DNA from: a virus
Strand: one strand, 5' to 3'
DNA: 27,086 nt
Virus record (IMG/VR): IMGVR_UViG_3300017971_000680
Span: 1-27,086 of that record
The notes beneath the pieces are model-generated. The model was given only the letters and a program-made list of their open reading frames with translations, searched no databases and was not told the origin of the DNA. The position numbers were made by a program, and so were the translations under genes. Positions 3-17,484 of this stretch are shown here, piece after piece (the stretch's first letter is position 1; each line of letters begins with the position of its first letter).

Positions 3-335
3 GATGTGGCTGCGAACATGGCGGCGGCGTTGGGTGGGTTGAGAGCGGTCGAAGCGGTGAACGTCGCGAACGATAAAGTGACCCGGGCCGAACCGTTGGA
101 AGCGATAATCGAGCATGGCCGGTTCCACGTGTTACGCGCTCCCTGGAACGACATATTTTACGAGCAGATGTCGCAGTTTCCGAGCAGCAACGTGCATGAC
201 GACGCGATAGACGTGGTCTCTGGCGGGTACCATATGTTGGCGGCGATACACGGTGTCGAAGGGAAAGAGGAACCGGTGTTCAACGCGTATAGCCGGTACG
301 GTGGGTTGATACCGGAAGTCGGCGAGTTCTGGTAG
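3..335 (+). CDS. terL: Terminase large subunit, C-terminal fragment
   Basis: The reading frame is open from the left edge, so only the last 110 or so residues are present. This is the end of the nuclease half of the phage DNA-packaging motor, which cuts concatemeric DNA at the portal. Seen: a K-x-x-R-A-E-P-L stretch, then a W-N-D-x-F block, then F-P-x-S-N-V-H-D-D-A-I-D, the usual last acidic motif of TerL nuclease domains followed by a small helical tail. The portal gene starts 13 bases downstream, the standard packaging-module order. The GTG at 6 is not a real start, since the frame continues upstream. Confidence 0.88.
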   Translation, partial: DVAANMAAALGGLRAVEAVNVANDKVTRAEPLEAIIEHGRFHVLRAPWNDIFYEQMSQFPSSNVHDDAIDVVSGGYHMLAAIHGVEGKEEPVFNAYSRYGGLIPEVGEFW

Positions 336-348
336 AGAGGATACGAAT

Positions 349-1842: not shown

Positions 1843-2708
1843 GCGAGCTCACGAACGATTGGATTGAAAAGGTGACCGCTGAGTTGTTGGCCGCTGCCCG
1901 AGGTGGAGTCTTTTCGCCTGAAGCACAACGTCATGCTGCTCGGTTGACACGGAAGCTCCAGTCGTATTTTCGCCGTATCCGGTCGACGTTCCCGATGGAC
2001 ATGGTCATGCAGAGGGCGAGACAGCATCTGGCCACCATGCAGGAAGCCATGACGCCGGTCGAGGAGGAGTTTTACGTTTCGCTGGCAGAATGGTCGGCAG
2101 GTGAACGGGAAGTGTTGGACGTCATGTTCATCGAGTCGATCAACGGTACTACCAGGGACGGGTACGCTATCAAGACAACCGAGTACGCGGATATGTATGG
2201 GTTGCCGGTGCCGCAGAATATCAACGCGATGGTGCCGAACCGTGTGCTCGAGTGGGTGCCCGGTCATAGCGCAACGTTGGTCAAAGGTATCACCGAGACG
2301 ACCAGGAAACAGTTGGCCGGGGTGATAGCGACAGGTCTGAAAGAACAGTTGTCGCCACCACAGATCGCAAAGGAGATCGGCGCCAAGTTTCGGGAGTACA
2401 GCGAACGACGGTGTGAGTTGATAGCGTTGACTGAGACGCACAACGCGTTGGCCGAAGGGTCGTGGAGGGCAGCAGACGATGTGGGCTCACAGGAGAAGAG
2501 CTCGATCACGACTGGTTTGGCGAACGTCTGCGACGTCTGTCTGGATAACGCGGCGGAAGGATGGATCAGTATTGATGACGAGTTTCCGAGCGGTCATGTA
2601 CACAACCCGTTTCATCCTGGCTGCCACTGTGACGTGCTGTATCGGGGCGCGACGAAATCGAGTGTGGAGGACCAGATTGCGGGGCTAGTTGCAGCCCTAG
2701 GCGGATGA
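1839..2708 (+). CDS. MuF-like minor head (head morphogenesis) protein
   Basis: 289 residues. MuF-like proteins sit inside or at the portal vertex and help head assembly. Seen: an N-terminal helical region, then a C-terminal half with the MuF signature: R-C-E-L-I-A-L-T-E-T-H-N-A at about 196-208, then a cysteine pair (V-C-D-V-C) and a closing H-P-x-C-H-C-D motif, the typical end of this fold. The start overlaps the portal stop as ATGA, and its own stop overlaps the next small gene the same way, so translation is probably coupled. No toxin domain is attached, unlike some MuF proteins. Confidence 0.85.
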   Translation: MSELTNDWIEKVTAELLAAARGGVFSPEAQRHAARLTRKLQSYFRRIRSTFPMDMVMQRARQHLATMQEAMTPVEEEFYVSLAEWSAGEREVLDVMFIESINGTTRDGYAIKTTEYADMYGLPVPQNINAMVPNRVLEWVPGHSATLVKGITETTRKQLAGVIATGLKEQLSPPQIAKEIGAKFREYSERRCELIALTETHNALAEGSWRAADDVGSQEKSSITTGLANVCDVCLDNAAEGWISIDDEFPSGHVHNPFHPGCHCDVLYRGATKSSVEDQIAGLVAALGG

Positions 2709-2911
2709 ATCTGAAGCCGACACGAGAGCATACGGGTAGCGGCATGAAAAAGGTTGGCGAGGCGACGGTGAAAGTGGCCCTCGAGGTGACCGATAATTTT
2801 TTGCTTGCAGAACGGCAATCGATTCTGATAAAATTAGGGGCGGTCGAAGAAGAACTGATTCGGCGAGGCAGGTTGAGACAACGGAGCGTGACGCCCAAGA
2901 GGAAACGATGA
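2705..2911 (+). CDS. Small hypothetical protein (68 aa)
   Basis: Not recognised. 68 residues, mixed charge, with no signal peptide, membrane segment or cysteine motif. The central part is likely helical (a V-K-V-A-L-E-V-T-D run, then E-E-E-L-I-R-R) and the end is very basic, P-K-R-K-R. It is held in place by ATGA overlaps with the MuF gene before it and the next gene after it. Its last codons (AAGAGGAAACGATGA) also carry the SD for the next gene, which may explain the basic tail. Confidence 0.6.
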   Translation: MNLKPTREHTGSGMKKVGEATVKVALEVTDNFLLAERQSILIKLGAVEEELIRRGRLRQRSVTPKRKR

Positions 2912-3117
2912 GCGGCTTGTGGTTGGTGGGGAAGTTCATAGCTGAGACACCGGACGGGAACGTTTGGGACTTCCAGGGTATCTTCACCACGAAAAAGAAG
3001 GCAATCGCTGCATGTAAAGAGCAATCGTATTTCGTCGCACCGGTGGAACCTAATGAAGAGCTACGAGACGAGACAATGGCTTTCCCGAAAGCGGAGTACC
3101 CGAAGAGGAAACGATGA
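2908..3117 (+). CDS. Small hypothetical protein (69 aa)
   Basis: Not recognised. Residues 1-45 look like a small beta-rich domain (W-L-V-G-K-F, then a D-G-N-V-W-D-F-Q-G-I-F run, then T-T-K-K-K-A-I-A-A-C), resembling small phage proteins with a strand-strand-helix layout. The C-terminus is P-K-R-K-R, identical to that of the preceding unrelated gene, because both end with the same SD-bearing sequence. It overlaps by ATGA at both ends. Confidence 0.6.
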   Translation: MSGLWLVGKFIAETPDGNVWDFQGIFTTKKKAIAACKEQSYFVAPVEPNEELRDETMAFPKAEYPKRKR

Positions 3118-3527
3118 AAGTGTTGGGATGGTTGTTCCGATGCGTGGAACGTGTGGTTCGGCAGTTTGTCGAGCCATGTCCAATATGCGGGAGCAAACCA
3201 GAGGTAGCCTTTTTCAAGAGGGACTATACGATCTTCGCGCATGAACCAGATCAGGCCTTGTATCGTTGCCGGATACTGTGTCGGGCCTGTGGTATCAAGA
3301 CGATTCCGGAACCCGTCTCTACTTTACGGCTCGCCATTCATGAATCATTGTCAGCATGGAACTCAGCGGATGGTAGAGATGAAGCGCAGCGATCTTATGC
3401 CCAGAATGCTGACATCCTTGATACGAAAGCGATTCCGGCAAATGTTGAACTGGCGCCGGGGATCGTCTGCTACAAACCGTATGCTCGGGCAATGGCGGAG
3501 AAAATCAAAGCGATCATAGCGAAATAA
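3114..3527 (+). CDS. Lar-like zinc-ribbon protein (putative restriction alleviation)
   Basis: 137 residues. Seen: C22-P-I-C25-G-S near the start, then C56-x-x-C59-G, then A-W-N at 81-83. This C-P-x-C-G-S ... C-x-x-C-G ... x-W-N pattern is the hallmark of Lar-type restriction-alleviation proteins, whose Rac prophage member modifies type I restriction activity. Many Lar-like phage proteins have unknown roles, so the function is inferred. The C-terminal 50 residues lie beyond the usual Lar length and are not recognised. It is the last gene of a coupled block (MuF, two small genes, this gene), and a terminator follows within 30 bases. Confidence 0.6.
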   Translation: MKVLGWLFRCVERVVRQFVEPCPICGSKPEVAFFKRDYTIFAHEPDQALYRCRILCRACGIKTIPEPVSTLRLAIHESLSAWNSADGRDEAQRSYAQNADILDTKAIPANVELAPGIVCYKPYARAMAEKIKAIIAK

Positions 3528-3553
3528 CAACATAGCCACCGGGTCGTAGACTC

Positions 3554-3618
3554 AGCGGCGCATCAGACAGACTAGCGGGAATCACTCGCCGGTCTATTTG
3601 GTGCGCCGCTTTTTGTTT
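3554..3618 (+). terminator. Probable rho-independent terminator after the Lar-like gene
   Basis: AGCGGCGCA (3554-3562) pairs perfectly with TGCGCCGCT (3602-3610), followed by TTTTGTTT. A smaller inner stem (AGAC with GTCT) lies in the 39-base loop. The stem-plus-T-run is typical of an intrinsic terminator. It may partly insulate the packaging block from the protease/capsid genes. Confidence 0.7.
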
Positions 3619-3641
3619 GTGCTCCGGGAGATCGAGACGAA

Positions 3642-5594
3642 ATGCCGTACACACCTAACAGCGCGAACCTACCAAAAAACGTGAGGAACGAACCGGAACC
3701 GGTACGTCGGCAGTGGTGCGCTGTCTGGAACAGCGAATACGAGAAGAGACGGAAGGAAGGGATGTCGCACAAGGACGCCGAGGCTCGAGCGTTCCAGCTA
3801 GCCAATGGAGTGTTGAAAAAGATGCAGCAGTCACGAGGTGAAGGACAAGGGGTCGGTGGGCCGAGACAAGGGGACGGTGGTGCGGACATTTGTGTCTGCC
3901 CGAAATGCGGCTATGAGACCGAGCACGACCGAGGCACTCCCTGTACGGAGATCAAGTGTGCCAAATGCGGCACGCCGATGACCGGCAAGACGACAGTAAA
4001 GGAGTCGGCTCTCATGGACGTGATGGATCAGTTGTTGCTCGAATCGGGCCAGCGAGAAGTCTCGGAAGAGACGTTGGCCGAGTTGAACCGGATAGTGGAC
4101 GAGTCCGCTGCCGATACGCCGTCATCCAATCTCGAGGACCGTGCGGACCAGTTGTTAGTCGAGATACGGGAGGCGCGGTTACTCAAGAGCGAAGAGGGTG
4201 GCGTGAAGTTGCCCAAGGAGGCTTACGCTTACGTTGGCGATCCGGAGAAGGTGACCACGTGGAAGCTGCCGTTATGGGAGGGCACGGAGAAGAAGGTCAC
4301 GAAAGCGAAGCTCGGCCAGGCGGCAGCGGCTTTAACGTCGGGCGGGTTCCGAGGGCAGACGGTGAAACTGCCGAAAGCGGCTATACCAGCGGTGAAAGCG
4401 CGTATCCGCCGCGAGTACCGGAAGCTCGGCGTGCCGGTGGAGAAGATGCCCCGGTCGCTCCGGGAATCGATCTCGAGGTCGTTGCTCGAGCACATAACGG
4501 GGATCGAAATCACCGAATCTGTGGCAGACCAGATCGCCAAAGGTATCGTGCCGGTCCGGGTGATCAAGCCCGGCTGGAATTGGGACAAGACGTTTTACTA
4601 CACGGCAGAGGCGCTGGCAGATATCGCACAGAAGTTCGAGGGGATCAAGATGTACTGCGATCATCCGCGACCGTCTGATGACCGGGAGCTACCCGAACGG
4701 TCTGTCCGGGATTGGGTGGCGGTGCTCAGAAACTGCAAGGTGGCTAGGAGCGGCGCGGTAGTCGGCGAGGCGCATATACACGCCGCTTGGTTCAAGGAGT
4801 TGCTGGCAGGCATGGCGGAAGCTGGCACGTTGAACGAGATGGGCGTATCCGTTGTCGGTGTCGCGGCGGGCGCACGAGGGAGGGTTGAAGGACACGACAC
4901 CGTGATTGTCGAGTCGGTTGAGAAAGCCAGATGCTGCGATTTCGTCACAGAACCAGGGGCGGGCGGCGGAGTTGGGTTCACTGAGAGCAGACGGGCCGAG
5001 CTCTACGAGCTAGAGAACGACCTCGATCTGGTCGGTGAAAGCGACCTGCGCGAACGCAGACCGGACCTCGTGACGGAGATCGAAGCGAAAGCGGTCAGAG
5101 AAGCGAAACAGAAGAAGGAGGAAAGGAAGATGGATTTGGAACAGGAACTCCGGGAAGTGAAGGAGTCGCTTGCGGCCGCCGAGAAGGAGAACGAGCGGTT
5201 GAAAGGCGAGCTCGAGGCTGCCCAGACGAAGATGAAAGAGTCTGAGGGCAAGCTGGCCGAGTATCAGAAGAAAGAGGCTCAGGTCGAAGTCCAGAAAGAG
5301 GTCGACACCATCCTCGAAAGCGAGAAGTACAAGGGGATGCCGGAAGAGACCAAGAGACGGGTCAAGGCGCAGTTTGCCGAGTCAACCTCGAAAGAGGGTA
5401 TCGCGGAAGCTGTTGAGGAAGAGCGGCTCTACCTTGTGGAACTGAGCAAGGGCGGCGTCGTGAAGGACCTCGGGGCCAGCGGGCCGCCTGACGCCGATCC
5501 GGAGAAGGTGGAAGCTGAACTCCGGGAATCGTTCAAGCGGTTGCATCCCGAGTATACGGACGAACAGCTTGAGGTGGCGGTCCGAGGTCGGTAG
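3642..5594 (+). CDS. Prohead protease with ChaB-like N-terminus and C-terminal scaffold domain
   Basis: 650 residues, long for a prohead protease, and apparently modular. Residues 1-62 look like ChaB (MPYTPNSANLPKNV start, W-x-x-x-W-N core). A zinc ribbon follows (C86/C89, C106/C109). Residues 188-263 hold a K-L-P-K-E-A-Y-A-Y-V ... R-G-Q-T-V-K-L-P domain often seen in phage head proteins. Residues 300-445 resemble a Mu-I/S78-like serine protease, with possible His341 (Y-C-D-H-P) and Ser403 (M-G-V-S-V-V-G) and a closing D-F-V-T-E-P-G-A-G-G block. From about 480 it is charged coiled coil, the expected scaffold. It sits just before decoration and major capsid genes. Catalytic residues are proposed from pattern only. 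Confidence 0.75.
   Translation: MPYTPNSANLPKNVRNEPEPVRRQWCAVWNSEYEKRRKEGMSHKDAEARAFQLANGVLKKMQQSRGEGQGVGGPRQGDGGADICVCPKCGYETEHDRGTPCTEIKCAKCGTPMTGKTTVKESALMDVMDQLLLESGQREVSEETLAELNRIVDESAADTPSSNLEDRADQLLVEIREARLLKSEEGGVKLPKEAYAYVGDPEKVTTWKLPLWEGTEKKVTKAKLGQAAAALTSGGFRGQTVKLPKAAIPAVKARIRREYRKLGVPVEKMPRSLRESISRSLLEHITGIEITESVADQIAKGIVPVRVIKPGWNWDKTFYYTAEALADIAQKFEGIKMYCDHPRPSDDRELPERSVRDWVAVLRNCKVARSGAVVGEAHIHAAWFKELLAGMAEAGTLNEMGVSVVGVAAGARGRVEGHDTVIVESVEKARCCDFVTEPGAGGGVGFTESRRAELYELENDLDLVGESDLRERRPDLVTEIEAKAVREAKQKKEERKMDLEQELREVKESLAAAEKENERLKGELEAAQTKMKESEGKLAEYQKKEAQVEVQKEVDTILESEKYKGMPEETKRRVKAQFAESTSKEGIAEAVEEERLYLVELSKGGVVKDLGASGPPDADPEKVEAELRESFKRLHPEYTDEQLEVAVRGR
5130..5594 (+). 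CDS. Nested in-frame scaffold protein (internal start)
   Basis: An ATG at 5130, codon 497 of the protease gene, is preceded by AAGGAGGA (5115-5122) at ideal spacing. Starting there gives a 154-residue protein made almost only of the Glu/Lys-rich coiled coil and the C-terminal helical segment. This matches the lambda C/Nu3 arrangement, where the scaffold is translated from inside the protease gene in the same frame. The position right at the protease-to-coiled-coil junction supports a real start. The SD could instead be a by-product of Lys/Glu codons (AAG AAG GAG GAA). Confidence 0.55.
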   Translation: MDLEQELREVKESLAAAEKENERLKGELEAAQTKMKESEGKLAEYQKKEAQVEVQKEVDTILESEKYKGMPEETKRRVKAQFAESTSKEGIAEAVEEERLYLVELSKGGVVKDLGASGPPDADPEKVEAELRESFKRLHPEYTDEQLEVAVRGR

Positions 5595-5654
5595 CGGCAG
5601 AACAAACGTGTCCAGTCTCGCAAAAAGCGGACAGGATAACAGGAGGAACCAAGG

Positions 5655-6464
5655 ATGTGTGGAAACTATGAAAGCGGAAGAACGTCACCTGGCGAGGCGA
5701 GCTCTACTTACGAAGGCCGGATAATTACGGTCCTCGAAAGTGAGATAACGCACCCGACCCATGATGACGGTCTGGTGGACAAGTACGACCCGGTGATGGT
5801 CGGGGACAGCATTGTCGGTGTCGCGATGTCGAGCGCTGCCGCCGCTACTGACCTGATCGCAGTTGACACGGAGGACATCTGGTATCTGCCGGTTAATGGG
5901 ACGGACGAAAGCGGGGACGTTGCGGTTGCTCCGGGAGACGTGATCTGGATATCGAGCGCGTGCGCCTTGAGCAAAGACAGCAGCGGCCGTCCGTTCGGTT
6001 GGGCTCTCGGCACTGTGGCGTCTGGTGCTTCCGGAACGTACATTGCCGTGAAAGTCCACGGCAATCAAGGTCAGGGGTTTAAGGTGGTCGATTTCATCAG
6101 CCAGACGGTTGCTATCGGCGACTTTACTGACAACACGGACGCGACCGGTTACGTCGATCTGACACCGACATTGCCGGCCGGGGCGATGCCGCTCGGATGC
6201 AAGTTCGTGGTGGCCACCGGGTTCACAGGCGATACGACAGCGGTTGTACAGGCTGGTGTCGCAGGGGATCTGGACCGGTTCACGGCAGATACCGCCCAGA
6301 GCGTGCTTGCAGCAGCGACAGTCGGATCGCTGGCTATTGCAGCGGACGCGTGTGACGGGATCAATGCAGCGGCCACAGTTCGTGTCACGGTAACTGGGGC
6401 AGCGGATTTTGGGAATATCAGTGCTGGCCAGATGACGGTGTACGTGTATTTCGTGAGAACGTAG
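5655..6464 (+). CDS. Head decoration protein (DUF2190-like) with extra C-terminal domain
   Basis: 269 residues, Ala/Gly/Thr/Val-rich and beta-like, with no transmembrane segment. Residues about 20-140 match the DUF2190 capsid-decoration pattern: an early G-D-S-I-V-G-V-A stretch, A-V-D-T-E-D-I-W-Y-L-P-V-N-G, then a V-A-P-G-D-V-I-W-I turn, ending in I-A-V-K-V-H. Residues about 143-269 are a second, separate beta-rich domain ending in V-Y-V-Y-F-V-R-T, probably the exposed knob. The strong AGGAGG SD lies 6-12 bases before the ATG. Its place between scaffold and major capsid is the usual one. Confidence 0.7.
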   Translation: MCGNYESGRTSPGEASSTYEGRIITVLESEITHPTHDDGLVDKYDPVMVGDSIVGVAMSSAAAATDLIAVDTEDIWYLPVNGTDESGDVAVAPGDVIWISSACALSKDSSGRPFGWALGTVASGASGTYIAVKVHGNQGQGFKVVDFISQTVAIGDFTDNTDATGYVDLTPTLPAGAMPLGCKFVVATGFTGDTTAVVQAGVAGDLDRFTADTAQSVLAAATVGSLAIAADACDGINAAATVRVTVTGAADFGNISAGQMTVYVYFVRT

Positions 6465-6512
6465 GCCGGGGCAACCTGACCATTGAGAACGGAAACGAGG
6501 AGGACCAAAGCA

Positions 6513-7655
6513 ATGGGTAAAGACGTGTTGCAGACTTTAGAGGGATGGGACGGTTTCTTCGCTGTCTCTGAGGCGAGGCGGCCTGCGGACTATCCTATAC
6601 GGATGAAGGAGACGATCGATCTCCTGACGAACGCGAGAGGGTTGGCACCGCATCGGGCAGAGTTTCTCATGCGAGAAGCCATGACGTCCGACGATTTCCC
6701 GTACCTGTTCGGAGACGTGCTCGATCGGCAAATGCTGGCTGCGTACAAGGCGGTTCAACCTGTCTGGCGGAACTTCGTCAGGTTCGACACGGTGAACAGG
6801 CTCTATCCGCTCGTTGGCGGTCGGCGGTTTGCGATGTCCGGCGGCGACCAGCTTCTGCCTGAAATCGCTGAGAAGGGCGAGTACCCGGCTTCGGATCGGG
6901 AGGAGACCAAGTACGACGTGTACGCCCGGGTGTACGGCCGTCAGTTCGATATTTCGTGGCGGACATTGTACAACAACGCGGGTGTCAAAGCGCTAAAAGA
7001 TACCCCGGAACAGTTTGGACGAGCGGCTGCGCGGACGGAACACCGGCTCGTGACGGCGACGTATGCCGGGGATGTCGGGACACACGCTGGCGGCAACCTG
7101 TACGAAGTGGGGGTCAACGCAAGCGCGAATGCGCTCACGATCGCGAACTTGTCAACGGGGATCGCCACAATGAACCAGTTGACGGATGCGAACGGTGAAC
7201 CGATAGAGAATACGCCGGTCCATCTGGTGGTCTGTCCGTCGCTGGAGGATACCGCCTGGGAAATCACGACAAGTCTGATCATGCAGTGGTTAGCTGATGC
7301 GGATGACGTGACACCGCCCGCGCCGTATGCGACAGCGAACCCGATCCCGAGACGAAAGTTGAAGGTCTGGGTGGACAAGTATCTTCCGATTGTTGACACG
7401 GTAAGCGACGACGAGGCGTGGTACCTGTTCAGCGATCCGAACGATATCGCGGCTATCGAGGTCGATTACGCTGAGGGACACGAGAGACCGGAAATCTGCA
7501 TGAAGGCGAGCAACAAGGTTGCCGTGAACGGCGGGACGATCAGTCCGTTCGAGGGCGATTTCGCTACGGACAACGTGTTTTACCGTGTTCGGCTGTGTTT
7601 CGGCGCGAACAAGCTCGATTGGCGAGCGACGTACATGGGCGGTTACCAGGGCTAG
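6513..7655 (+). CDS. Major capsid protein (HK97-fold, Mu gpT-like)
   Basis: 380 residues, normal for an HK97-fold shell protein. Seen: G-W-D-G-F-F-A-V-S-E-A-R near the N-terminus, a long helical segment with F-L-M-R-E-A-M-T-S-D-D-F-P, an R-R-F-A-M-S-G-G-D loop, an E-K-G-E-Y-P-A-S stretch, then Y-G-R-Q-F-D-I-S-W and the R-T-E-H-R helix, all resembling Mu gpT-like capsid proteins. A TTG at 6483 is in frame but weak. The ATG at 6513 has GAGGAGGA 9-16 bases upstream and was chosen. Hundreds of copies form the icosahedral shell, probably after scaffold removal by the protease two genes upstream. Confidence 0.85.
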   Translation: MGKDVLQTLEGWDGFFAVSEARRPADYPIRMKETIDLLTNARGLAPHRAEFLMREAMTSDDFPYLFGDVLDRQMLAAYKAVQPVWRNFVRFDTVNRLYPLVGGRRFAMSGGDQLLPEIAEKGEYPASDREETKYDVYARVYGRQFDISWRTLYNNAGVKALKDTPEQFGRAAARTEHRLVTATYAGDVGTHAGGNLYEVGVNASANALTIANLSTGIATMNQLTDANGEPIENTPVHLVVCPSLEDTAWEITTSLIMQWLADADDVTPPAPYATANPIPRRKLKVWVDKYLPIVDTVSDDEAWYLFSDPNDIAAIEVDYAEGHERPEICMKASNKVAVNGGTISPFEGDFATDNVFYRVRLCFGANKLDWRATYMGGYQG

Positions 7656-7702
7656 TGCGGTAGCTGATAAAGACCCTCGGCCATTCGGGGGACGCAGACA
7701 AA

Positions 7703-7733
7703 GGGGCGGTAGTCCGGCTGCTGCTACCGCTCC
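7703..7733 (+). other. Intergenic hairpin after the capsid gene
   Basis: GGGGCGGTAG (7703-7712) pairs with CTACCGCTCC (7724-7733) around an 11-base loop, with one G-T pair. A second smaller stem (CCCTCG with CGGGGG) lies just upstream. There is no T-run, so it is not a classic terminator. It could lower read-through from the very highly expressed capsid gene or protect its mRNA 3' end. Confidence 0.45.
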
Positions 7734-7751
7734 CGAGAACAGGAGCTCGAG

Positions 7752-8099
7752 ATGACAGACGTCGAGTTTGTCAGGTTACGGATCGGCGACGTTGCGAAAA
7801 CGATCTTCCCGAACGATACGGACATCCAGGCGTTCATAGACGCGAACAGCGGTGACCTCTGGTTAGCCGCTGCGGACGCGTGTATGGCGATCGCTGCCGA
7901 TGCTGGCAAGTACGCCAAAGTCCAGCGGATCGGCGAGTACGAGATCGACCGGACGAAAGTGCCAGGGATCATGATGAAACTGGCCCAAGAGTACCGGAAG
8001 ATGTCCGCTGAACAACCGGCAGACGGGTACTACGAACAGTCGCTGACTGACTGGAACGTGAACGAGATCATTTACAACGAGGCGTTGCGACAGTCGTGA
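7752..8099 (+). CDS. Head-tail connector (gp6/adaptor-like)
   Basis: 115 residues, mostly helical. It starts with a short acidic helix (T-D-V-E-F-V-R-L-R-I-G-D), followed by F-P-N-D-T-D-I-Q-A-F-I-D-A-N and an A-A-A-D-A-C-M-A-I-A-A-D helix. This pattern and size fit HK97 gp6/SPP1 gp15-like adaptors, which bind under the portal. The ATG has AACAGGAG upstream. The stop overlaps the next start as GTGA. Assigned mainly from position and helical content. Confidence 0.65.
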   Translation: MTDVEFVRLRIGDVAKTIFPNDTDIQAFIDANSGDLWLAAADACMAIAADAGKYAKVQRIGEYEIDRTKVPGIMMKLAQEYRKMSAEQPADGYYEQSLTDWNVNEIIYNEALRQS

Positions 8100-8455
8100 G
8101 TTATGCGGACGTGATAGCGACCGAGTACGAGATGGACTTGCCGCACACCTGCACGATCCGGGAGTACACGGTAGTCGGTCGTGATAGCCGGAACCAGGAG
8201 ATCAAAGACTGGACTGACCTGGCGACGGACGTCAAGTGCCGGTTCGAATGGCCGTATGGTACGGAACTCCAGGCTTCCGTCCCGGCAGTGGTGATGTACC
8301 CGCGATGCTGGTTCAAACCGGACCAGACCATCACGAGCGACCATCGGGTCGTATACGACGGCCAGACGTTTGAGGTCAAAGTGGTGAGAGATGGTACCGG
8401 CGAGTCGGCCTTGGTCTACAAACTGGCCGAGCTCGTAAGAGCAGGGAAGGAATAA
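8096..8455 (+). CDS. Head closure / head-tail connector protein
   Basis: 119 residues, starting at GTG 8096 overlapping the previous stop (GTGA). Beta-rich with no membrane segment. It resembles the SPP1 gp16/HK97 gp7-like stopper family: C-T-I-R-E-Y near the start, an R-D-S-R-N-Q-E-I-K-D-W turn, V-K-C-R-F-E-W, and a closing V-V-Y-D-G-Q-T-F-E-V-K strand pair. Such proteins plug the portal channel after packaging. The neighbouring genes (adaptor before, gp10-like after) support this. Confidence 0.65.
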   Translation: MSYADVIATEYEMDLPHTCTIREYTVVGRDSRNQEIKDWTDLATDVKCRFEWPYGTELQASVPAVVMYPRCWFKPDQTITSDHRVVYDGQTFEVKVVRDGTGESALVYKLAELVRAGKE

Positions 8456-8460
8456 CACCG

Positions 8461-8895
8461 GTGGCACGAGCGAACGTAGAGGTCGAGATTCGGATGCACC
8501 CGGACGCGCTGGACCAGATAGTGCGGAAAACTCTTGTCGCGATCGAACGGGCCGGTCAGGAAGGTATGAACGTCGCAAAACAGGAGTCGCCCAAACGTAC
8601 TGGCCACAATATGCGGAGTATCAGTTACGAGGTTCAGGTGGACGGCGTGGACGTCCGGCTGATCGTCTCCACGGCGTCCGGGTACGGCGGCTGGCTGGCT
8701 ATCGGTACCGGGATATACGGGCCGCGCGGCCAGCCTATCCGACCGAAACGAGCGAAAGTGCTCGCGTGGAAAGGTGAGGACGGCAAGGTGCATTTCGCGA
8801 AAGAGGTGAAAGGGTTCCCGCCCGACCCGTACATGAACATTGCGTACGAGGCTACCAAGAAAGCGTTGGTGCGGGAGCTCGAGGGGAGCGTATGA
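8461..8895 (+). CDS. HK97 gp10-like tail completion / neck protein
   Basis: 144 residues. Seen: an N-terminal helix, then S-P-K-R-T-G-H-N-M-R-S-I, a strand region, then Y-G-G-W-L-A-I-G-T-G and R-P-K-R-A-K-V-L-A-W, ending with an F-P-P-D-P-Y-M helix. This R-T-G-x-L-r-S ... E-x-G-T ... P-A-x-P-f pattern is the HK97 gp10/SPP1 gp16.1-like family, which joins the neck to the tail. The start is GTG with GGAAGGA upstream. The stop overlaps the next gene as ATGA. Confidence 0.75.
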   Translation: MARANVEVEIRMHPDALDQIVRKTLVAIERAGQEGMNVAKQESPKRTGHNMRSISYEVQVDGVDVRLIVSTASGYGGWLAIGTGIYGPRGQPIRPKRAKVLAWKGEDGKVHFAKEVKGFPPDPYMNIAYEATKKALVRELEGSV

Positions 8896-9548
8896 CCGAG
8901 ATTCTGGACATAGACCCGGGGGCGATCCTGATGGATTGGTTGATGGAATCTGTCGCGTCATCGGCGACCGGGAGCTTGGCGGCGGGGATAGCGAAGACCG
9001 ACCTGACGTTTTCTGTCGGTGCAGGCGAAGGAACATCCTTCCCGAAGAAACGGAGTTTCGTAGTGAAGATCGATAGCGAGCTTGTCAAGGTGACACGGTC
9101 CACGGACACGTTCACGGTAGACGGTCGGCGTGGCGCGTTCGGTACGACAGCGGCCAGCCACGTTCTTGGGGCAACCGTAAGCCTGGCCAACTTCTCGGTG
9201 GTCGTCGGACAGAAAGAAAAGAGCCCGCAAGCTGACGACGATTTCGAGAACAAAGAACCGGCAGTCGTGTTCTGGATACGTGGCGGTGACGTCCGTATCC
9301 GGTCGTCCACAGTAAGCCCATCGTTCCAGGTGGAATGTTTCGGCGGGAGCGACGATCCGATAGATGCTATGGCGGTGTACCGTGCGTTACGGGGACGGTT
9401 ACAAGGGCGGACGGGCGAAGACACGGATCACGGCGAGTTGCTGTCTGCAACCGAGGAAGGGCATGGCCAGGAGCTTATCGATCCGGTGACCGCATGGCGG
9501 AAAGTGTTGACGTATTACACGGTCCACAGTGGGCCGTTGGATGGCTGA
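8892..9548 (+). CDS. Tail terminator protein with an inserted beta domain
   Basis: 218 residues, longer than a usual tail terminator (about 130-150). Residues 1-22 and about 100-218 look like the terminator core, which caps the tail tube and meets the neck. Between them, about 24-98, is an extra domain with the pattern L-T-F-S-V-G ... S-F-V-V-K-I-D-S-E-L-V-K-V-T-R ... F-T-V-D-G-R-R-G-A-F-G-T-T-A-A-S-H. A matching domain occurs at the start of the fibre-like protein at 14306. Position between the gp10-like gene and the tail tube, with the ATGA overlap, supports the call. Confidence 0.6.
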   Translation: MTEILDIDPGAILMDWLMESVASSATGSLAAGIAKTDLTFSVGAGEGTSFPKKRSFVVKIDSELVKVTRSTDTFTVDGRRGAFGTTAASHVLGATVSLANFSVVVGQKEKSPQADDDFENKEPAVVFWIRGGDVRIRSSTVSPSFQVECFGGSDDPIDAMAVYRALRGRLQGRTGEDTDHGELLSATEEGHGQELIDPVTAWRKVLTYYTVHSGPLDG

Positions 9549-9572
9549 AGAAATGGATGGAGGTAACGGACA

Positions 9573-10442
9573 ATGGCTAAAGAACGAGAAGTAGTGATAT
9601 CGCCTGAAAAGGTTCTGTTGAACCTGGAAGGGTCAGGTATCCCGACAGTTGGCGCAAGCATGAGTTGGGGCGGAAGCGCGAACGAGGTGCAGACGCTCAG
9701 CGTGACGGGCACACCCACTGCCGGGACGTTCAAACTCAGGTACATGGGCTATCCGGGGGCTGAAACGGACGAGACGACAACTGCGCTTACCTTCGACGAG
9801 GCATCGGCAGACGTTGATGCGGCGCTCGAGGCGCTCACAAGCATCGGTGTTGCGGACGTTGCGTGCGCTGGCGGTCCGTTGCCAGGGACGCCTATCACAA
9901 TAACGTTTGAGACGTTGCTGGCAGCAAAACCGATCTACCCGCTGCAGCTAACTGCGATTGCTCTCACAGGCGGTACAGAACCGGCCCCGAGCATTGCGAG
10001 AACGACACGCGGTTGGTCGGCATGGACGGAACTGCCGACGCTGGACGAGGAAGGCGTCGAGCTCACGTTGCTCACGGAAGGCGATCCGATCACCCCGGCA
10101 GGTGCGAAGATGCCGACTGAGGAACCTATCGTCAAGCGGGGCGTCTCAAAAATCCTGGTGCATTGTCACGGGTCACACAGCGATGTGTTGAAGTACGCAA
10201 TCGCTGACGTGTACGACGGGACGACCTACCTTGAAAGCGGTGCCGACCGGGTCTACTACGCGCTTGCAGTCAAGACGCGCAACTCGGTCTGGCAGGTATA
10301 CAAAGTGTCGCCAAGCGGGAACGTCCCGTTGAGTTGGGCGAACTCGAGCGGCGGTCTTGTCGCTTTCGAGTTCATCTGTTACGAAGAGAAGTATGGCGCA
10401 CGCGGCGCGTCCAACTATCGGCGAACCAAGATCGAAGTGTGA
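9573..10442 (+). CDS. Major tail (tube) protein with inserted NEVQT-type domain
   Basis: 289 residues. The tail tube protein stacks as hexameric rings around the tape measure. Core segments are about 1-32 (V-L-L-N-L-E-G-S-G-I-P) and about 147-289 (G-W-S-A-W-T-E-L-P onward). Inserted at about 36-145 is a domain with N-E-V-Q-T-L-S-V-T-G-T-P-T-A-G-T-F-K-L, a helix D-V-D-A-A-L-E-A-L-T-S-I, then G-G-P-L-P-G-T-P-I-T-I-T-F and A-L-T-G-G-T-E, the widespread NEVQT repeat of phage virion proteins. It is followed by the tail chaperone and tape measure. The insert probably projects from the tube surface. Confidence 0.7.
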   Translation: MAKEREVVISPEKVLLNLEGSGIPTVGASMSWGGSANEVQTLSVTGTPTAGTFKLRYMGYPGAETDETTTALTFDEASADVDAALEALTSIGVADVACAGGPLPGTPITITFETLLAAKPIYPLQLTAIALTGGTEPAPSIARTTRGWSAWTELPTLDEEGVELTLLTEGDPITPAGAKMPTEEPIVKRGVSKILVHCHGSHSDVLKYAIADVYDGTTYLESGADRVYYALAVKTRNSVWQVYKVSPSGNVPLSWANSSGGLVAFEFICYEEKYGARGASNYRRTKIEV

Positions 10443-10491
10443 CAACCAGTAGGGGATTGACCGGTGCACGTCCACGGGAAAGGAGGTCGTC

Positions 10492-11070
10492 ATGGGTAAC
10501 TCGCGGTCGTTTGAACGGAAGAACAAGCCGGAACGTGTCCAGACGCGGACCGAAGCGCAGGTGTTCAGCCGGGAACCTATCAAGGTGACGCTAGGCGACC
10601 GGCAGTTCACGATCCGGCCGCAAGCGGTACGCCAGGGCCGGAAGTTCCGGCAAGCATTCGCAAAAGCTACCGAGAGCCTGGACGAGATGATGGTTCTGGC
10701 GGTAGCTGCGGCGGACGAGACCGGCCAGGTGAACATGAAACACGCCGATGCCGTCAGGATCATGAGGATGACCGTGACATCGAGTTACGACGATCTCCTA
10801 GACTGTCTGTACGAGTACGACCCGTCACTGAAACAGCATAAAGACTACATCGAACAGCACGCGACAGACGAGCAGGTGCTGGACGGTGTGGTGGCGATCA
10901 CGAGGTTAGTTAGCGGCCCTTTTTTGGGGAAGGTCGCGAGCATCATGGCGGCGGGGATGGGGATGACAGAAGCTCAGGTCCTGCAACAATCCGGCCAGAA
11001 CGAGATGTCGACTATCAACGAGCAGACCTCTACAGCCGATGTCTCCAGCAATGGCATGGAGTCAGCCTGA
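10492..11070 (+). CDS. Tail assembly chaperone (gpG-like)
   Basis: 192 residues, mostly helical, with a D-R-Q-F-T-I-R-P-Q start to its core and long helices about residues 45-145. It sits between tail tube and tape measure, the invariant place for the G/GT chaperone pair, and has a very strong AAGGAGGT SD. Codons 143-145 contain a T-TTT-TTG slippery site, after which an open -1 frame runs to 11216. These proteins coat the tape measure during assembly and are absent from the finished tail. The zero-frame tail after the slip site is about 47 residues, Gln/Ser/Thr-rich at the end. Confidence 0.7.
   Translation: MGNSRSFERKNKPERVQTRTEAQVFSREPIKVTLGDRQFTIRPQAVRQGRKFRQAFAKATESLDEMMVLAVAAADETGQVNMKHADAVRIMRMTVTSSYDDLLDCLYEYDPSLKQHKDYIEQHATDEQVLDGVVAITRLVSGPFLGKVASIMAAGMGMTEAQVLQQSGQNEMSTINEQTSTADVSSNGMESA
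10920..10926 (+). other. Putative -1 ribosomal frameshift slippery site T-TTT-TTG
   Basis: The heptamer fits X-XXY-YYZ in the register of the upstream gene, whose zero-frame codons here are TTT TTG (Phe-Leu). Slipping back one base leads into a frame that stays open to TAG at 11214-11216. Lambda-type tail chaperones use the same kind of site at the same place in the gene order. Confidence 0.6.
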
Positions 11071-11216
11071 CAGAGATCGAGACTGTCTGGACGGACGAGA
11101 TGTTGCATCTTATGGCGGACGCTCTGGTCCGGTCAATCGAGCGGGACAGCAGGTCGTACCGTGAGGCCGGTCAAACCTACATGACGGAAGAGGAAGCGAT
11201 CGATGCAGGGTGGTAG
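10926..11216 (+). CDS. Tail chaperone T-like extension, made by -1 frameshift
   Basis: This -1 frame has no stop from the slippery site at 10920-10926 to TAG at 11214. The first 47 codons are low-complexity. From 11067 the peptide becomes protein-like: L-T-E-I-E-T-V-W-T-D-E-M-L-H-L-M, then V-R-S-I-E-R-D-S-R-S-Y, ending with E-E-A-I-D-A-G-W. It would be joined to the G protein to give about 241 residues. It has no good start of its own. The tape measure gene starts 4 bases after its stop. Alternative: independent reinitiation near 11067-11100. Confidence 0.5.
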   Translation, partial: GEGREHHGGGDGDDRSSGPATIRPERDVDYQRADLYSRCLQQWHGVSLTEIETVWTDEMLHLMADALVRSIERDSRSYREAGQTYMTEEEAIDAGW

Positions 11217-11219
11217 CCC

Positions 11220-13493
11220 ATGGCGATAGAAATTGGTGACGGCGTCATCCGGTTCCGGGGAGATTATTCCCAGGTCCAGTCGAGCTTGCAGAAGGCGGCG
11301 CCAGCTATGCGGCAGGTGGGTGTTGTCGCTGCAGCGGCTGGTGCTGCGATTACTGCTGGTATCGGTGTTGCCGTAAAACAGGCTGGATCGTTCGAGCAGG
11401 CGATCACCAACGCGGCCAGTGTGACCGGGAAGTCGGGTGCGGAGTTTGAAGCTGCCCGGGACAAGATGTCGGATCTCGCCTTGACGCTCGGCCGTACCAC
11501 GGTGTTCTCGGCTAGAGAGTGTGCTGACGCTTTCTACGATCTGTCCAGTAAAGGGTTCGACGTCGCGGCCATGAGCGTCGAAGAGCTCAAACCGATGATG
11601 GACCTGGCCGCAGCGACACAGTCCGATCTGACGTTCTCGACAGAGACAGTGACGGCGACGTTACGAGCGTTTGGGATGGAGAACAAAGAGACCACCCGGA
11701 TCGCCGACGTGTTCACCAAAGCTATCGGGACGAGCGCAGCGAAAGTCGATATCCTGCGTGAGTCGATGAAGTATGTCGCGCCGGTAGCCAAAGCTGCGGG
11801 GGTCTCGTTCGAGGAAACAACGTCTCTCGTTTCGCAACTGGCGAACGTCGGGTACGAAGGCTCTATGGCGGGGACAGCGTTACGTCGGGCGTTCTCGGAG
11901 CTCATGTCGCCAAGCGACAAGCTGGTCAAGACTCTGGACCGGCTCGGGCTAACTGTTGACGATGTCAACCTCAAAAATCATACGTTCGCCGAAGTGCTCG
12001 GCAAACTGAAACAGGCCGGGTTCACTGCAGCGGACGCGATGGACATCTTCGGCCAACGTGCCGGGCCAACGGTCGCATCGTTGCTCGAGGTAGGCGACCA
12101 GGCGGTCAAGTCGTTCACGGAATCGTTGAACAGCGCCGGTGGGACGGCAGCGACTGTCGCCGAACAGCAGCTACAGACGTTTGAAGGGCAGATGAAACTG
12201 TTGAAGTCGGCGATTGAAGGGTTCCTCATACCAGTTGGCAAGGCGCTATTGCCAGCGCTCACACAGCTTGCGACTAAGGTGTCCGAAGTCTTCCAGGCGT
12301 TGGCCCGATGGACAGAAGCGCATCCCGGTCTCACGAAAGTCATTGTTGCGACGGCAGGGGCGATCGGCGGGTTGTTACTTGTGGGCGGGTCGCTCTTATT
12401 GCTTGCAAGTCAACTGATAATCGCGTTCGTCGGGTTGAGTACGTTGCTCGGCGGGGCTGCCGGAGTCGCGGGTGCGGCAGGTGCAGCGGGGTTCAGCCTG
12501 ACAGCGTTAGCCGGGACGTTGGGGACGTTCCTGTTGGGCGCGGCGGGTGTAGCGGTCGGGATAGTGCTGATCTGGAAGATCATACATGCCTTTGTCGAAT
12601 GGCGCCGTGCCGAAAACGAGTTGGCCGAATCCGAGCAGCGGCTCACTGAACAACGCAAGCGGCTGAAAGAGCAGGAAGAACGGCTGCTCGACGATGAGAT
12701 GCACCAGCGGACAGGGTTCTCCGAGCGGGCGATTGGCCTGATCCACGAGCAGGTGGAGGCTGAGAGCGGCGCCCAGATCGATAGGGAGAAACTTGTCGAG
12801 CGTATCAAGGAACTGAACGCCGACCATTCGATGTCTGTGACGGACATGGTGAATACCATCGCGGGAGAACTCCAACAGCAAAAGGGGGATATCAAGGAGA
12901 CAGAAAGCGTGTGGTCTGGCGCTATGGCCGGGATGCAGGAGACGACCCGGCAATATTCTGAGACGACGATCATGCACATCAGCCATGTGCGGGATCAGAT
13001 ATACGCGCTCAGGTTAGAGGTGAACGCAATGGGCGGCCATTCGTGGTGGGTCGACGCTTTCAACCGGATGGCTGCAGCGACAACGACATGGCGAAAAGGG
13101 TTTGAGGGTCACATGCAGGCCGCGACACACCGTATCGTGCAGCTCGGAAGCGTAACGCGAAGTCTTGGTATCGGCTGGCTTGGCAGAGGTGGCGAATCGA
13201 GTTATATGAACACGTTCCGGTCGATGCCCGATTTCACGGCTGGTCGCGGGTTCGGCATAATGGAGGTCCCGTCCCAAGTGGACATAAGTAAGCTCGGTGG
13301 TGGCGGCGGTGCGAGCGGCGGTGGCAACCCGGTCGGTAGCGGCAACCCGTGGCAGCCGAACGTGACGGTGAGTGGCAACACGTTTGTTGTGCGGACTGAG
13401 GACGATGTCGACGCGATCAATAAAGGGTTAGCCGAACAGATCAGAGAAGCCTTACGACAATCAGGACAACGGCTCTCGACGTCGAGGGTATGA
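11220..13493 (+). CDS. Tape measure protein
   Basis: 757 residues, the longest gene here. Its length sets tail length, about 110 nm if 0.15 nm per residue holds. Residues about 30-330 carry the TP901/TIGR01760-type core: F-E-Q-A-I-T-N-A-A-S-V-T-G, a T-F-S-A-R-E-C-A-D-A-F-Y-D-L-S-S-K-G-F run, and helical repeats with F-E-E-T-T-S-L-V. Two long hydrophobic stretches (about 375-415 and 425-460) suit membrane insertion during DNA ejection. A charged coiled coil follows (E-Q-R-L-T-E-Q-R-K-R-L-K-E), and the C-terminus is Gly-rich. It directly follows the chaperone and overlaps Dit. Confidence 0.9.
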   Translation: MAIEIGDGVIRFRGDYSQVQSSLQKAAPAMRQVGVVAAAAGAAITAGIGVAVKQAGSFEQAITNAASVTGKSGAEFEAARDKMSDLALTLGRTTVFSARECADAFYDLSSKGFDVAAMSVEELKPMMDLAAATQSDLTFSTETVTATLRAFGMENKETTRIADVFTKAIGTSAAKVDILRESMKYVAPVAKAAGVSFEETTSLVSQLANVGYEGSMAGTALRRAFSELMSPSDKLVKTLDRLGLTVDDVNLKNHTFAEVLGKLKQAGFTAADAMDIFGQRAGPTVASLLEVGDQAVKSFTESLNSAGGTAATVAEQQLQTFEGQMKLLKSAIEGFLIPVGKALLPALTQLATKVSEVFQALARWTEAHPGLTKVIVATAGAIGGLLLVGGSLLLLASQLIIAFVGLSTLLGGAAGVAGAAGAAGFSLTALAGTLGTFLLGAAGVAVGIVLIWKIIHAFVEWRRAENELAESEQRLTEQRKRLKEQEERLLDDEMHQRTGFSERAIGLIHEQVEAESGAQIDREKLVERIKELNADHSMSVTDMVNTIAGELQQQKGDIKETESVWSGAMAGMQETTRQYSETTIMHISHVRDQIYALRLEVNAMGGHSWWVDAFNRMAAATTTWRKGFEGHMQAATHRIVQLGSVTRSLGIGWLGRGGESSYMNTFRSMPDFTAGRGFGIMEVPSQVDISKLGGGGGASGGGNPVGSGNPWQPNVTVSGNTFVVRTEDDVDAINKGLAEQIREALRQSGQRLSTSRV

Positions 13494-14302
13494 TGGACAG
13501 TATCATTTACAACGGGGTCGACCTTTCAGGAGCGAATTACGGGATAGTGCTCGAAGGTCATCCGGTCCCGGCCATAATGAGCCCGGACGTTGACGTCCAG
13601 GAAGTAGCGCACGGTGGCGGGATCAGCCAGGGCAAAACCTACAGGCCGATAGTGTTCGGTGCGACGGTCGCCGTCCGAGGCGCGAGCCCGTCCGATCTGC
13701 GGCAGAAAATCGAAGCGATGCATACCCTGTTCGATGTCGAGAGCGACAAGACGTTGGTGTTCGACATTGCGGGGTGGCGGCATAAACGGTGGAACGCTCG
13801 GTTGTACCGGCCGTCGTTAGACCAGGTGATAAACGACCGGACAGTCCGGTTGACCCTGGCGTTCATCTGTGCGAACCCGATAGCCGAAAGCACGGAGTTG
13901 TTGACGGAGAATTATACGCCCACCAGCAACGCGTTCACGTTCTACGTACCGGACGATGTGGCAGCGACAGTTGGCGGGAACTGTTTCGCCACGCCAGTCT
14001 ATACGATCAAAGCTACTGCCGGTGGGACTGAGTCCACGGTGAAGGTCAAGAACGTGACGCGGGATGAAGAGATCGTCTACAACGTGGCCTTAGCGGATGG
14101 TCACTGGTTGCGGATCAACACGGCGTTGATGAGCGTCCAGAAAAGTACCGATAGCGGTACCACATGGACGAACGTTATCGGCAGTTGCGATACCGGCCCG
14201 TTTCCTGTGCTCACCGCAGGTGTCCGGAACGAGATGTTGTTGACAGGTGCGGACAACTCGACGCTCGAAGTGGAGTACCGACGCCGGTATCTTGGAGGAT
14301 GA
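13490..14302 (+). CDS. Distal tail protein (Dit)
   Basis: 270 residues. Dit forms the hexameric hub at the tail tip that joins the tube to the adhesion device. Seen: I-I-Y-N-G-V-D-L-S at the start, a G-K-T-Y-R-P-I-V-F-G-A-T-V-A stretch, L-R-Q-K-I-E-A-M-H-T-L-F, and an L-V-F-D-I-A-G strand block, all usual for siphophage Dit. The C-terminal part (about 145-270) is a beta-sandwich-like extension. It overlaps the tape measure stop by ATGA. A second ATG follows 3 bases later, so the first residue is uncertain by one. Confidence 0.8.
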   Translation: MMDSIIYNGVDLSGANYGIVLEGHPVPAIMSPDVDVQEVAHGGGISQGKTYRPIVFGATVAVRGASPSDLRQKIEAMHTLFDVESDKTLVFDIAGWRHKRWNARLYRPSLDQVINDRTVRLTLAFICANPIAESTELLTENYTPTSNAFTFYVPDDVAATVGGNCFATPVYTIKATAGGTESTVKVKNVTRDEEIVYNVALADGHWLRINTALMSVQKSTDSGTTWTNVIGSCDTGPFPVLTAGVRNEMLLTGADNSTLEVEYRRRYLGG

Positions 14303-14305
14303 CAG

Positions 14306-15829
14306 ATGGGGACAACGTTTTGGAGTAAAGCCAACCGGGCGAAAGCGACGTTGGATAGTGCGATAAACGATACGCAGACCACGTTCGACGTGACCACGGT
14401 GAGCGGGTATAACGATCTGCCGTCGTCCGGTACGTTCGCGGTCCAGGTCGGGGATAGCGCTCAGGGGTACGAGATCATGACCGCGACCAGGTCCGGTGCG
14501 ACCCTGACCGTCACACGCGCTCAGGAAGGGACGTCAGCGTTACCGTTTGATGCCGGCACTATCGTTGACCATCTGCCGACAGCGGGTGCCTCGCAACAAC
14601 TCGAGACGGCGATCAACCAACGGGTGGAAGGACCGGCCAGCGCGACAGATCATGCTATCGTCCGGTTCGACGGGACGGACGGGAAGAAAGTCCAGAACAG
14701 CCTGCCGACAATAGACGATAGCGGTAACGTAGTGTTTCCCGGTAACGTCCAGTTAGGCGATAACGCAGCAGACGTCGTGAAGGCTCACGGCATGATTGGC
14801 GATCTCGGCAGTAACGTTCCGAGCCGGTTGTTCCGGGCAGCGAACCCGAAGAACCTGATAGCGAACGGCGATTTCGAGACGTGGCTTGGCGGAACCTCAG
14901 CGCTGCCGACTGGATGGGGTCAAATATCAAGTCCAACCGTCGCGAAGGAAACGACAACGATCAAACGCGGCAAAGCGTCCGCGAAAATCACGGGTAAGAC
15001 CGACAGTACGGTGTACGTGACGCAAATCTCTCCGATAACACCGACACTATCGAGAAACCGTACATGGACGTTCGGAACGTGGGTCTGGGCGGATGCCGCG
15101 AACAAAGCGCGTCTTACGGTAGCCTATGGCACAACACCGTCTTATGCCACCAAATACCACACCGGGAGTTCGTCATGGGAACTGCTAACGCTCGCTATCG
15201 GCCAGACAAGTAATGCGACAAATTTCGCTATGTATCTGGCTATTGACGCGAACGATCCTGCTGTGACCGCCTATTTTGACGGAGCATTTATAGTAGAGGG
15301 CCCGGAAGAGTGGGCGTTTGAATCGGGCGATGATCGGCTTGGCAATATCAACTTGCCGCTCGCCGGATGGTGGGATTATACCGATACCGAATGTCTTGAC
15401 GTTGCCGATACCGATCCAGCGCTTGGGACTCGGATGATTTCCTGGACAGACGCTGACACCGACCAGATCGCGACGTCTGCCGTCATCCCGTCCGATTACG
15501 ATAGTGACGCGAACTTGTGTTGGTTCATCGCGTACTACAGTCTTGGGGCCGCCCAAGACAATGTCACGCTCGATCTCGAGACATTCAAGCATCGCGTGGG
15601 CGCTGGGTTTGACAACACGCCTACCACCTATGATCATACCGCCGATCCTGTAAACGTGAGCGAGATATGGAACGGCGATTCGACAACGAACATTCGACGT
15701 GTCGTGTACAAGCTCACAGAAACTTTGCAAGCTCATGACGTGCTTGATTTGGTGATCACCCGGGTTGACGACGGTGTAGCTGACGCGACGCTGCATCTTG
15801 CTGGTACACAGCTTATGTACGTGAAATGA
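14306..15829 (+). CDS. Tail fibre/baseplate-like protein with carbohydrate-binding-like module
   Basis: 507 residues, beta-rich. Residues about 14-90 form a small domain (T-F-D-V-T-T-V-S ... F-A-V-Q-V-G-D ... T-L-T-V-T-R-A-Q-E-G-T) like the insert in the tail terminator. Residues about 108-150 carry A-I-V-R-F-D-G-T-D-G-K-K-V-Q-N-S and D-D-S-G-N-V-V-F-P, common in tail fibres. Residues about 183-335 (N-L-I-A-N-G-D-F-E-T-W start) resemble CBM4/9-type sugar-binding modules. The rest is a separate beta-rich domain. Likely binds host or extracellular glycans, inferred. Strong GGAGG SD. Confidence 0.6.
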   Translation: MGTTFWSKANRAKATLDSAINDTQTTFDVTTVSGYNDLPSSGTFAVQVGDSAQGYEIMTATRSGATLTVTRAQEGTSALPFDAGTIVDHLPTAGASQQLETAINQRVEGPASATDHAIVRFDGTDGKKVQNSLPTIDDSGNVVFPGNVQLGDNAADVVKAHGMIGDLGSNVPSRLFRAANPKNLIANGDFETWLGGTSALPTGWGQISSPTVAKETTTIKRGKASAKITGKTDSTVYVTQISPITPTLSRNRTWTFGTWVWADAANKARLTVAYGTTPSYATKYHTGSSSWELLTLAIGQTSNATNFAMYLAIDANDPAVTAYFDGAFIVEGPEEWAFESGDDRLGNINLPLAGWWDYTDTECLDVADTDPALGTRMISWTDADTDQIATSAVIPSDYDSDANLCWFIAYYSLGAAQDNVTLDLETFKHRVGAGFDNTPTTYDHTADPVNVSEIWNGDSTTNIRRVVYKLTETLQAHDVLDLVITRVDDGVADATLHLAGTQLMYVK

Positions 15830-15843
15830 TAGAGGAGAAACCG

Positions 15844-16098
15844 ATGGCGATAGAGGCTGCTGCAGAAGAAATCACGCTTGTAACGAGATGGGTACATCAG
15901 CATCCGGACAAAGTTGTCGGTCGGATACTGAGCTCAGGGAACGAGACCGTCTGGAACATACTGTTGAACACAGCGAAAGGCGAGTTTGTCAAAGCGGAAG
16001 TGGTAGCGGTGCTCGAACGGTTGGACCGGTTGAACATCGATCCGACGTTGACGTTGGCAGAGCTCGCTCAGTCGGTAGGATGGGAACCGGAAGGGTAG
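15844..16098 (+). CDS. Small hypothetical tail-region protein (84 aa)
   Basis: Not recognised. All-helical, acidic, with no membrane segment. The in-frame ATG at 15826 overlaps the previous stop (ATGA) and would add six residues. The ATG at 15844 has AGAGGAG 6-12 bases upstream and is preferred. Placement between a fibre-like protein and the tail endopeptidase suggests a tail-assembly or adaptor role, but no motif proves it. Confidence 0.55.
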   Translation: MAIEAAAEEITLVTRWVHQHPDKVVGRILSSGNETVWNILLNTAKGEFVKAEVVAVLERLDRLNIDPTLTLAELAQSVGWEPEG

Positions 16099-16107
16099 GG
16101 AGTACCC

Positions 16108-16716
16108 GTGTACGCGGAACGTCTGTATGCAGAAGGGTTGTACGCGCACGGCGTAGCCGCGGTGACCGTTGCGTACCGGACGGTCGAGTACCACTTGGAG
16201 CTCCGGTCCAAAACCGGCACGCTGTTAGCGCATCTGCCCTGGTGGGATAAAGCCGTCTGGACACAGGAGACAAACGTTCCGGACCGGTTGGAGTTCACGT
16301 ATCCGGCATGGGACGAGGTGTGTGCCGATCTCGAGACGCCGAACCAGGTCTGGTTACGCGATAGCGCTCATGAGTACGAGCTCCTGCAGAAGTTCCGTAT
16401 CCAGGTGGTGAAACAGGTCTCGGAAAAGAACGAATACGTTGCGGTGACCTGCGAAGATTTGTTGTGCCAGCTTGCCGACGAATGGATCGACGAGTACGAA
16501 GGTGGCCCAACAGATACTGTCGCGGACGCTCTCTCGGACTGGTTTGGCCGACAGGTGAACAGCCCGAAACTGTCAAGGTACCTGGTATCGTCGGGTATAG
16601 CGAACGAGCAGATGGAGATCAGCGTGGTGAACCAGTCGGTGCTGGCAGCTATCCGGAACCTGCAAGAGAAGCTCGGGGGGTATATGCGGGTGAGTCCCGC
16701 TCGGCGGTTCACCTGA
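16108..16716 (+). CDS. Tail-associated endopeptidase family protein, N-terminal part (ends at in-frame TGA)
   Basis: 202 residues from GTG 16108 (GGGAG upstream) to TGA 16714-16716. It resembles the first half of the phage tail endopeptidase/Tal family (PF06605-like): paired beta segments such as W-T-Q-E-T-N-V-P-D-R-L-E-F-T-Y-P, C-E-D-L-L-C-Q-L, a D-T-V-A-D-A-L helix and L-G-G-Y-M-R-V. The frame after TGA continues unbroken with T-T-S-I-G-K-N-I-G-Q-Q-I-R and the rest of the family. The stop therefore falls inside one gene, at a place where homologues usually have Trp. It is either a nonsense mutation, an error, or a read-through site. Confidence 0.6.
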   Translation: MYAERLYAEGLYAHGVAAVTVAYRTVEYHLELRSKTGTLLAHLPWWDKAVWTQETNVPDRLEFTYPAWDEVCADLETPNQVWLRDSAHEYELLQKFRIQVVKQVSEKNEYVAVTCEDLLCQLADEWIDEYEGGPTDTVADALSDWFGRQVNSPKLSRYLVSSGIANEQMEISVVNQSVLAAIRNLQEKLGGYMRVSPARRFT

Positions 16717-16803
16717 ACCACCAGTATCGGGAAGAATATCGGGCAGCAGATCCGACGTGGGAAAAACCTGAAAGGTATCGAGGTCGAACGCGATTTCACG
16801 GAG

Positions 16804-17484
16804 ATGACAAACCGGTTGTACGCTTATGGAGCAGGGCAGAACCGGGACAGCCGGTTGACGTTGAAAGATGCTGGTGAATCTCACGAATATCTTGATGACA
16901 GTTCGTCTCAATCGACCTGGGGCCGGATAGTCTGCGGGGTGTATCACAACTCCGAGATCACCGATGCCTCAACGTTGAAGAAGGTTGCTCAGAAAATCTT
17001 GGCGGCAGAATCCGACCCGCGTATTGATTACCTGGTGGACATACCCGATCTGAGCCAGGACGCCAACGCGCCACGCGATTTCGAGCATATCGAGTTGGGC
17101 GCCCGGATAGTGTTGATCGACGAGAAACTTGGTATCTCGACGACACAGCACGTGGTCAAGGTCGAACGTGACCTCCGGAAAAAGCTGAACATCACGGTCG
17201 GGTTGTCGAACAAGAAACAGTTGCTCGGCCATTTGATCGCTGAACTCATACAGAAACAGAAAGAGCTCGACTTGGGCGATGTCGAGACGTCGGAGCTTGA
17301 CCCGGAAGATATCGGGACAGCAGCAGACCCTGGCAGTACGGGCGAGTTCGCGGACGCTGGACATAGGCACAAAGGGTTGACGGTCTATACGAGCAATCCG
17401 GAGCCGTTGGGAACGGCTAGTCCTGGCGATTCGGGTTTCGCATCGGACGGGAAGCATGTGCATCCGATCCCGAAATATACATAG
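16804..17484 (+). CDS. Tail-associated endopeptidase family protein, C-terminal part
   Basis: In the same frame as the previous gene; the open frame begins at 16717. Without read-through the first ATG is 16804 with a poor SD. Codons 16717-16803 encode the family's G-K-N-L-K-G-I-E-V-E-R-D-F block, which then continues into T-E-M-T-N-R-L-Y-A-Y-G, a very typical tail-endopeptidase match. A middle region follows, and then two His-rich motifs at the end (G-H-R-H and D-G-K-H-V-H-P-I-P), a pattern seen in fibre and spike tips that bind metal or join to the next protein. With the first part it would be about 458 residues. Confidence 0.65.
   Translation: MTNRLYAYGAGQNRDSRLTLKDAGESHEYLDDSSSQSTWGRIVCGVYHNSEITDASTLKKVAQKILAAESDPRIDYLVDIPDLSQDANAPRDFEHIELGARIVLIDEKLGISTTQHVVKVERDLRKKLNITVGLSNKKQLLGHLIAELIQKQKELDLGDVETSELDPEDIGTAADPGSTGEFADAGHRHKGLTVYTSNPEPLGTASPGDSGFASDGKHVHPIPKYT

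Follow-up and report, generated by a model that had tools for sequence, protein, structure and literature searches.

Does the in-frame TGA at positions 16714-16716 of this phage DNA separate two tail-tip proteins, is it decoded as an amino acid, or does it interrupt one ordinary gene? The window, i.e. the whole stretch analysed, spans an entire IMG/VR record (27,086 bases, no N). It is a fragment of a temperate siphophage, with the end of the terminase, capsid, tape measure, Dit, integrase, and S24 repressor genes. The features that bear on the question are:

11220-13493: tape measure, identified by PF10145
13490-14302: Dit, identified by phrog_33
16108-16713, plus strand: 5' part of the tail-tip gene (Tal-like, PF06605/TIGR01665), with a GTG start and 202 codons, from the ORF and profile matches
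16714-16716, plus strand: in-frame TGA, codon 203, which is TGG in 26 of 26 close relatives, from the sequence and the alignment of the relatives
16717-17481, plus strand: 3' part of the same gene, 255 stop-free codons with most of the PF06605 match, from the profile and conservation
16804-16806, plus strand: first ATG, GTG or TTG downstream of the TGA, an ATG inside the PF06605 domain, from an ORF scan
16703-16722, no strand assigned: inverted repeat GGCGGTTCA-CC-TGAACCACC with 8 of 9 pairs and a 2-nt loop, from a repeat scan

As the first-pass annotation had stated, the two parts share a single frame, which runs from the GTG at 16108 to the TAG at 17482-17484 that closes the 3' part, with the TGA as its sole interruption (16705-16722 reads CGGTTCACCTGAACCACC). 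The stretch 16108-17484 encodes 458 aa if the TGA is counted as a residue; if it is kept as a stop, there is a 202-aa ORF with 255 open codons behind it. The GTG start agrees with L128, the full-length relative nearest to the window protein: its alignment begins at residue 1 (residues 1-458, 38% identity), it has one open frame, and it shares the end motif HPIPxYT with the window protein. The ATG at 16804 is located 29 codons past the TGA, well within the PF06605 domain, and a GGAG directly abuts it, which, judging from the sequence, leaves no usable Shine-Dalgarno spacing. Since this first candidate start lies inside the domain and touches the GGAG, a separate gene starting after the TGA appears unlikely.

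The read-through product matches PF06605 (Prophage_tail) over residues 167-378 (6.5e-28, 98.5 bits, cut-off 31.3) and TIGR01665 (phage tail spike protein, put_anti_recept) over residues 53-356 (71.4 bits, cut-off 26.75), both far above cut-off. Taken by itself, the sequence behind the stop matches PF06605 at 4e-24. Given these spans, the TGA falls within the domain. The matches bear out the tail-tip identity assigned earlier, the endopeptidase activity being predicted. The gene also lies downstream of the tape measure and Dit, as PF06605 genes do in siphophage tail modules. Named members of these families include gene BhaS171_00024 of Bacillus phage vB_BhaS-171 and the solved protein gp18 (3GS9). 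A profile search against solved structures found 3GS9 and two others, a direct sequence search against them gave nothing useful, and AlphaFold2 applied to the read-through protein without an alignment reached a pLDDT of 34. From these similarities, the gene would be a PF06605/TIGR01665 member by descent whose copy in this record is interrupted: one in-frame TGA breaks its frame through the PF06605 domain, whereas the homologues are open at codon 203.

Close relatives of the tail genes are few, unlike those of the major capsid protein of the same phage (6483-7655), whose identity reaches 62% with relatives from many IMG/VR contigs and is 51-59% with loci from MAGs of Dehalococcoidia and others. 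A search for close relatives in genomes gave matches in 2 of the 393 genomes from the class of a Dehalococcoidales MAG, and a single PF06605 match among 400 genomes from its phylum.

To which residue does codon 203 correspond in relatives? An alignment with two Dehalococcoidia homologues led to 19 IMG/VR relatives, and a second scan, whose query was the part after the stop only, added 7 more that cover the site; codon 203 was absent from this second query, which excludes a bias of that search towards Trp. The codon is TGG in all 26 of these close relatives, at least two of which are near-duplicates of others. The 14 more distant homologues, which come from cultured phages and genomes, carry Leu (7), Trp (2), Phe (2), Tyr (2) or Ile (1) at the aligned position. 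This distant set alone pointed to Trp being atypical, an impression that the closer relatives corrected. The description of this site as a usual Trp position is accordingly right for the close subfamily and does not extend to the distant homologues, and the claim that the gene is one base away from being intact agrees with the TGG of the close relatives. The protein alignment proposed in the first-pass annotation shows homologues reading open across codon 203: a stop at this codon is found in none of the 26 close and none of the 14 distant homologues, and no relative examined ends there with a downstream gene having its own start, the pattern named earlier as evidence against a split gene.

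The part after the stop shows no decay and is conserved no less than the 5' part. Its identity to L128 is 42-44%, compared to 36% for the 5' part. Of 33 positions without variation among seven other aligned relatives, the 3' part retains 27, a score equal to that of the intact gene of L115, the least similar intact member. An undecayed 3' part suggests that the stop is very recent, is absent from the real phage, or is bypassed.

A different interruption of this protein occurs in about half of the close relatives, which divide it into two genes about 100 residues before codon 203. The junction is located at about residue 103-107 (window numbering) in L109, L110, L111, L113, L117, L122, L123, L125, L126, and L127, with a 4-nt ATGA overlap in nine of these ten and a TAA followed by a new ATG in L117. 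In L130 and L132 the reading frame changes at this junction, and the window protein and L128 are fused across it. We also observe about 80-250 extra residues after residue ~250 in L117, L119, and L122-L127.

The TGA is the ordinary stop of this phage, and the commonest: it ends 20 of the 33 other listed genes, eight of them through a 4-nt ATGA or GTGA overlap onto the next gene. This usage contradicts a reassignment of TGA to tryptophan in the phage or its host, which would account for the Trp match at one codon; no tRNA gene was found in the window either, and we give this reading next to no credence. Selenocysteine insertion is just as hard to credit: it would fit an in-frame TGA, but the relatives show Trp or other hydrophobic residues and never Cys, and an Rfam scan at the site gave no match, SECIS included. 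Programmed UGA read-through, yielding 202-aa and 458-aa tail-tip proteins, was one of the options raised by the first-pass annotation. The 255 open codons with their strong domain match speak for it, and the intact 3' part is likewise expected if a read-through product is in use. Nevertheless, the stop is conserved in no homologue, close or distant, the RNA around and downstream of the TGA folds no better than shuffled sequences (z = 0.27), the Rfam scan offers no element, and the TGA cuts inside PF06605, away from the boundary at residue ~105 where relatives split the protein. We therefore find this option unsupported and highly improbable.

Another reading is a stop that is simply leaky. Through misreading, a UGA in place of Trp is tolerated more readily than any other stop, and the copy number of tail-tip proteins per virion is generally low. 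A real nonsense mutation could leave the phage viable if the host tRNA-Trp misread UGA at a few per cent and restored the conserved Trp, since few copies would suffice. In phage Qbeta, the UGA of the coat gene is misread as Trp about once in 15 times (PMC8067240), and both systems have a UGA where read-through would give Trp, followed by an open in-frame extension. This precedent and the undecayed 3' part are in favour of a leaky stop. However, the Qbeta stop follows a complete coat protein and is built into the system, whereas the stop in the window cuts a domain and is absent in relatives. The stimulating context looked for in RNA folding and Rfam was not found either, truncated chains would far outnumber complete ones and could interfere with assembly, and the propagation of a phage with exactly this sequence is an assumption. 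We consider a viable phage with a leaky stop unlikely. Still further from what we expect, and very improbable, is that a temperate phage keeps UGA at a conserved Trp codon of a few-copy tail-tip protein so that tail completion is tied to the host's decoding accuracy through tRNA-Trp misreading. Low-level read-through by tRNA-Trp, of the kind known from Qbeta, may occur, but nothing points to selection for it.

The preferred reading, a single-base change in an ordinary gene, draws attention to the surroundings of the TGA, which forms the start of the right arm of the inverted repeat at 16703-16722. With TGA the arms pair at 8 of 9 positions; every other single-base alternative at the codon lowers this to 7 of 9, the ancestral base being unobserved. 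Arms of 6 bp with loops of up to 2 nt comprise 0.7% of the window bases, a post hoc figure. Short inverted repeats are also able to cause library and assembly artefacts. Template switching at such repeats has two known products, spacer inversion and arm homogenisation (PMC8604942), and in this phage a spacer is inverted at 10340-10373, while the arm improved by the TGA might reflect homogenisation. Because the repeat is short and the ancestral base in this phage unobserved, a link of the TGA to template switching is only suggestive. A flip of the hairpin acting as an on/off switch was rejected, as the inverted form, worked out by hand, still has TGA at codon 203.

The spacer inversion was seen by comparison with L014, a contig from another metagenome, 3300028840, that covers 7725-16704 at 99.8% identity: the 18-nt spacer between GAACTCGA and TCGAGTTC, within the gene at 9573-10442, is inverted in L014 (2616-2649), altering about 7 residues near the protein end. 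A second contig, L028, also from another metagenome, 3300017963, covers 1-10068 at 99.93% identity. L014 stops 10 bases before the TGA and L028 at 10068, so that no second assembly crosses the codon. We considered whether the end of L014 marks an insertion or a hidden variant, but an assembly effect is enough, given that this end lies in an arm of the 16703-16722 repeat and that each of the three known contig ends has an inverted repeat no more than about 11 nt away, as does about 11% of the window. Leaving out the inversion at 10340, all five independent differences among these assemblies change amino acids, the outcome to be expected from errors or from recent changes free of selection, and nonsense changes make up about 3.7% of random substitutions in these genes. 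In the gene at 8892-9548, L014 and L028 have the same bases at 9201 and 9215-9220, and the window departs from both; all five changes in this cluster are to A (AAC GTG TGG in L014 and L028, AAA GAA AAG in the window), and no nearby template for them was found.

Taken together, the locus is very probably a single ordinary siphophage tail-tip (Tal-like) gene in which one apparently record-specific base change turned a conserved Trp codon into TGA, either by a real and very recent nonsense mutation or by a consensus error. The uniform TGG of close relatives, the open homologues, the conserved 3' part, and the lack of a start near the stop all lead to this reading, as do the amino-acid-changing contig differences, the tight repeat that the TGA improves, and the spacer inversion elsewhere. 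Simple mutation or sequence error is also the best fit among the options raised earlier. That the TGA is a real variant we hold to be about evenly balanced; it would then have arisen very recently, and unselected, from a conserved Trp codon in the sampled phage or prophage population and, unless suppressed or leakily decoded, would leave a truncated, non-functional 202-aa chain. That it is a sequence error is possible but doubtful; the base would then be a consensus error at the hairpin. Tight inverted repeats like this one are sites both of template switching, which would make the TGA a real mutation guided by the hairpin, and of sequencing artefacts.

The change itself is an ordinary nonsense change. 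What our analysis adds is that close relatives uniformly carry TGG at this codon and that, in many of them, the protein is encoded by two genes divided at about residue 105. In practice, it warns against annotating two proteins at 16108-17484. Were read-through to be demonstrated, this gene would be an equivalent of Qbeta A1 in a DNA phage, involving a structural tail protein.
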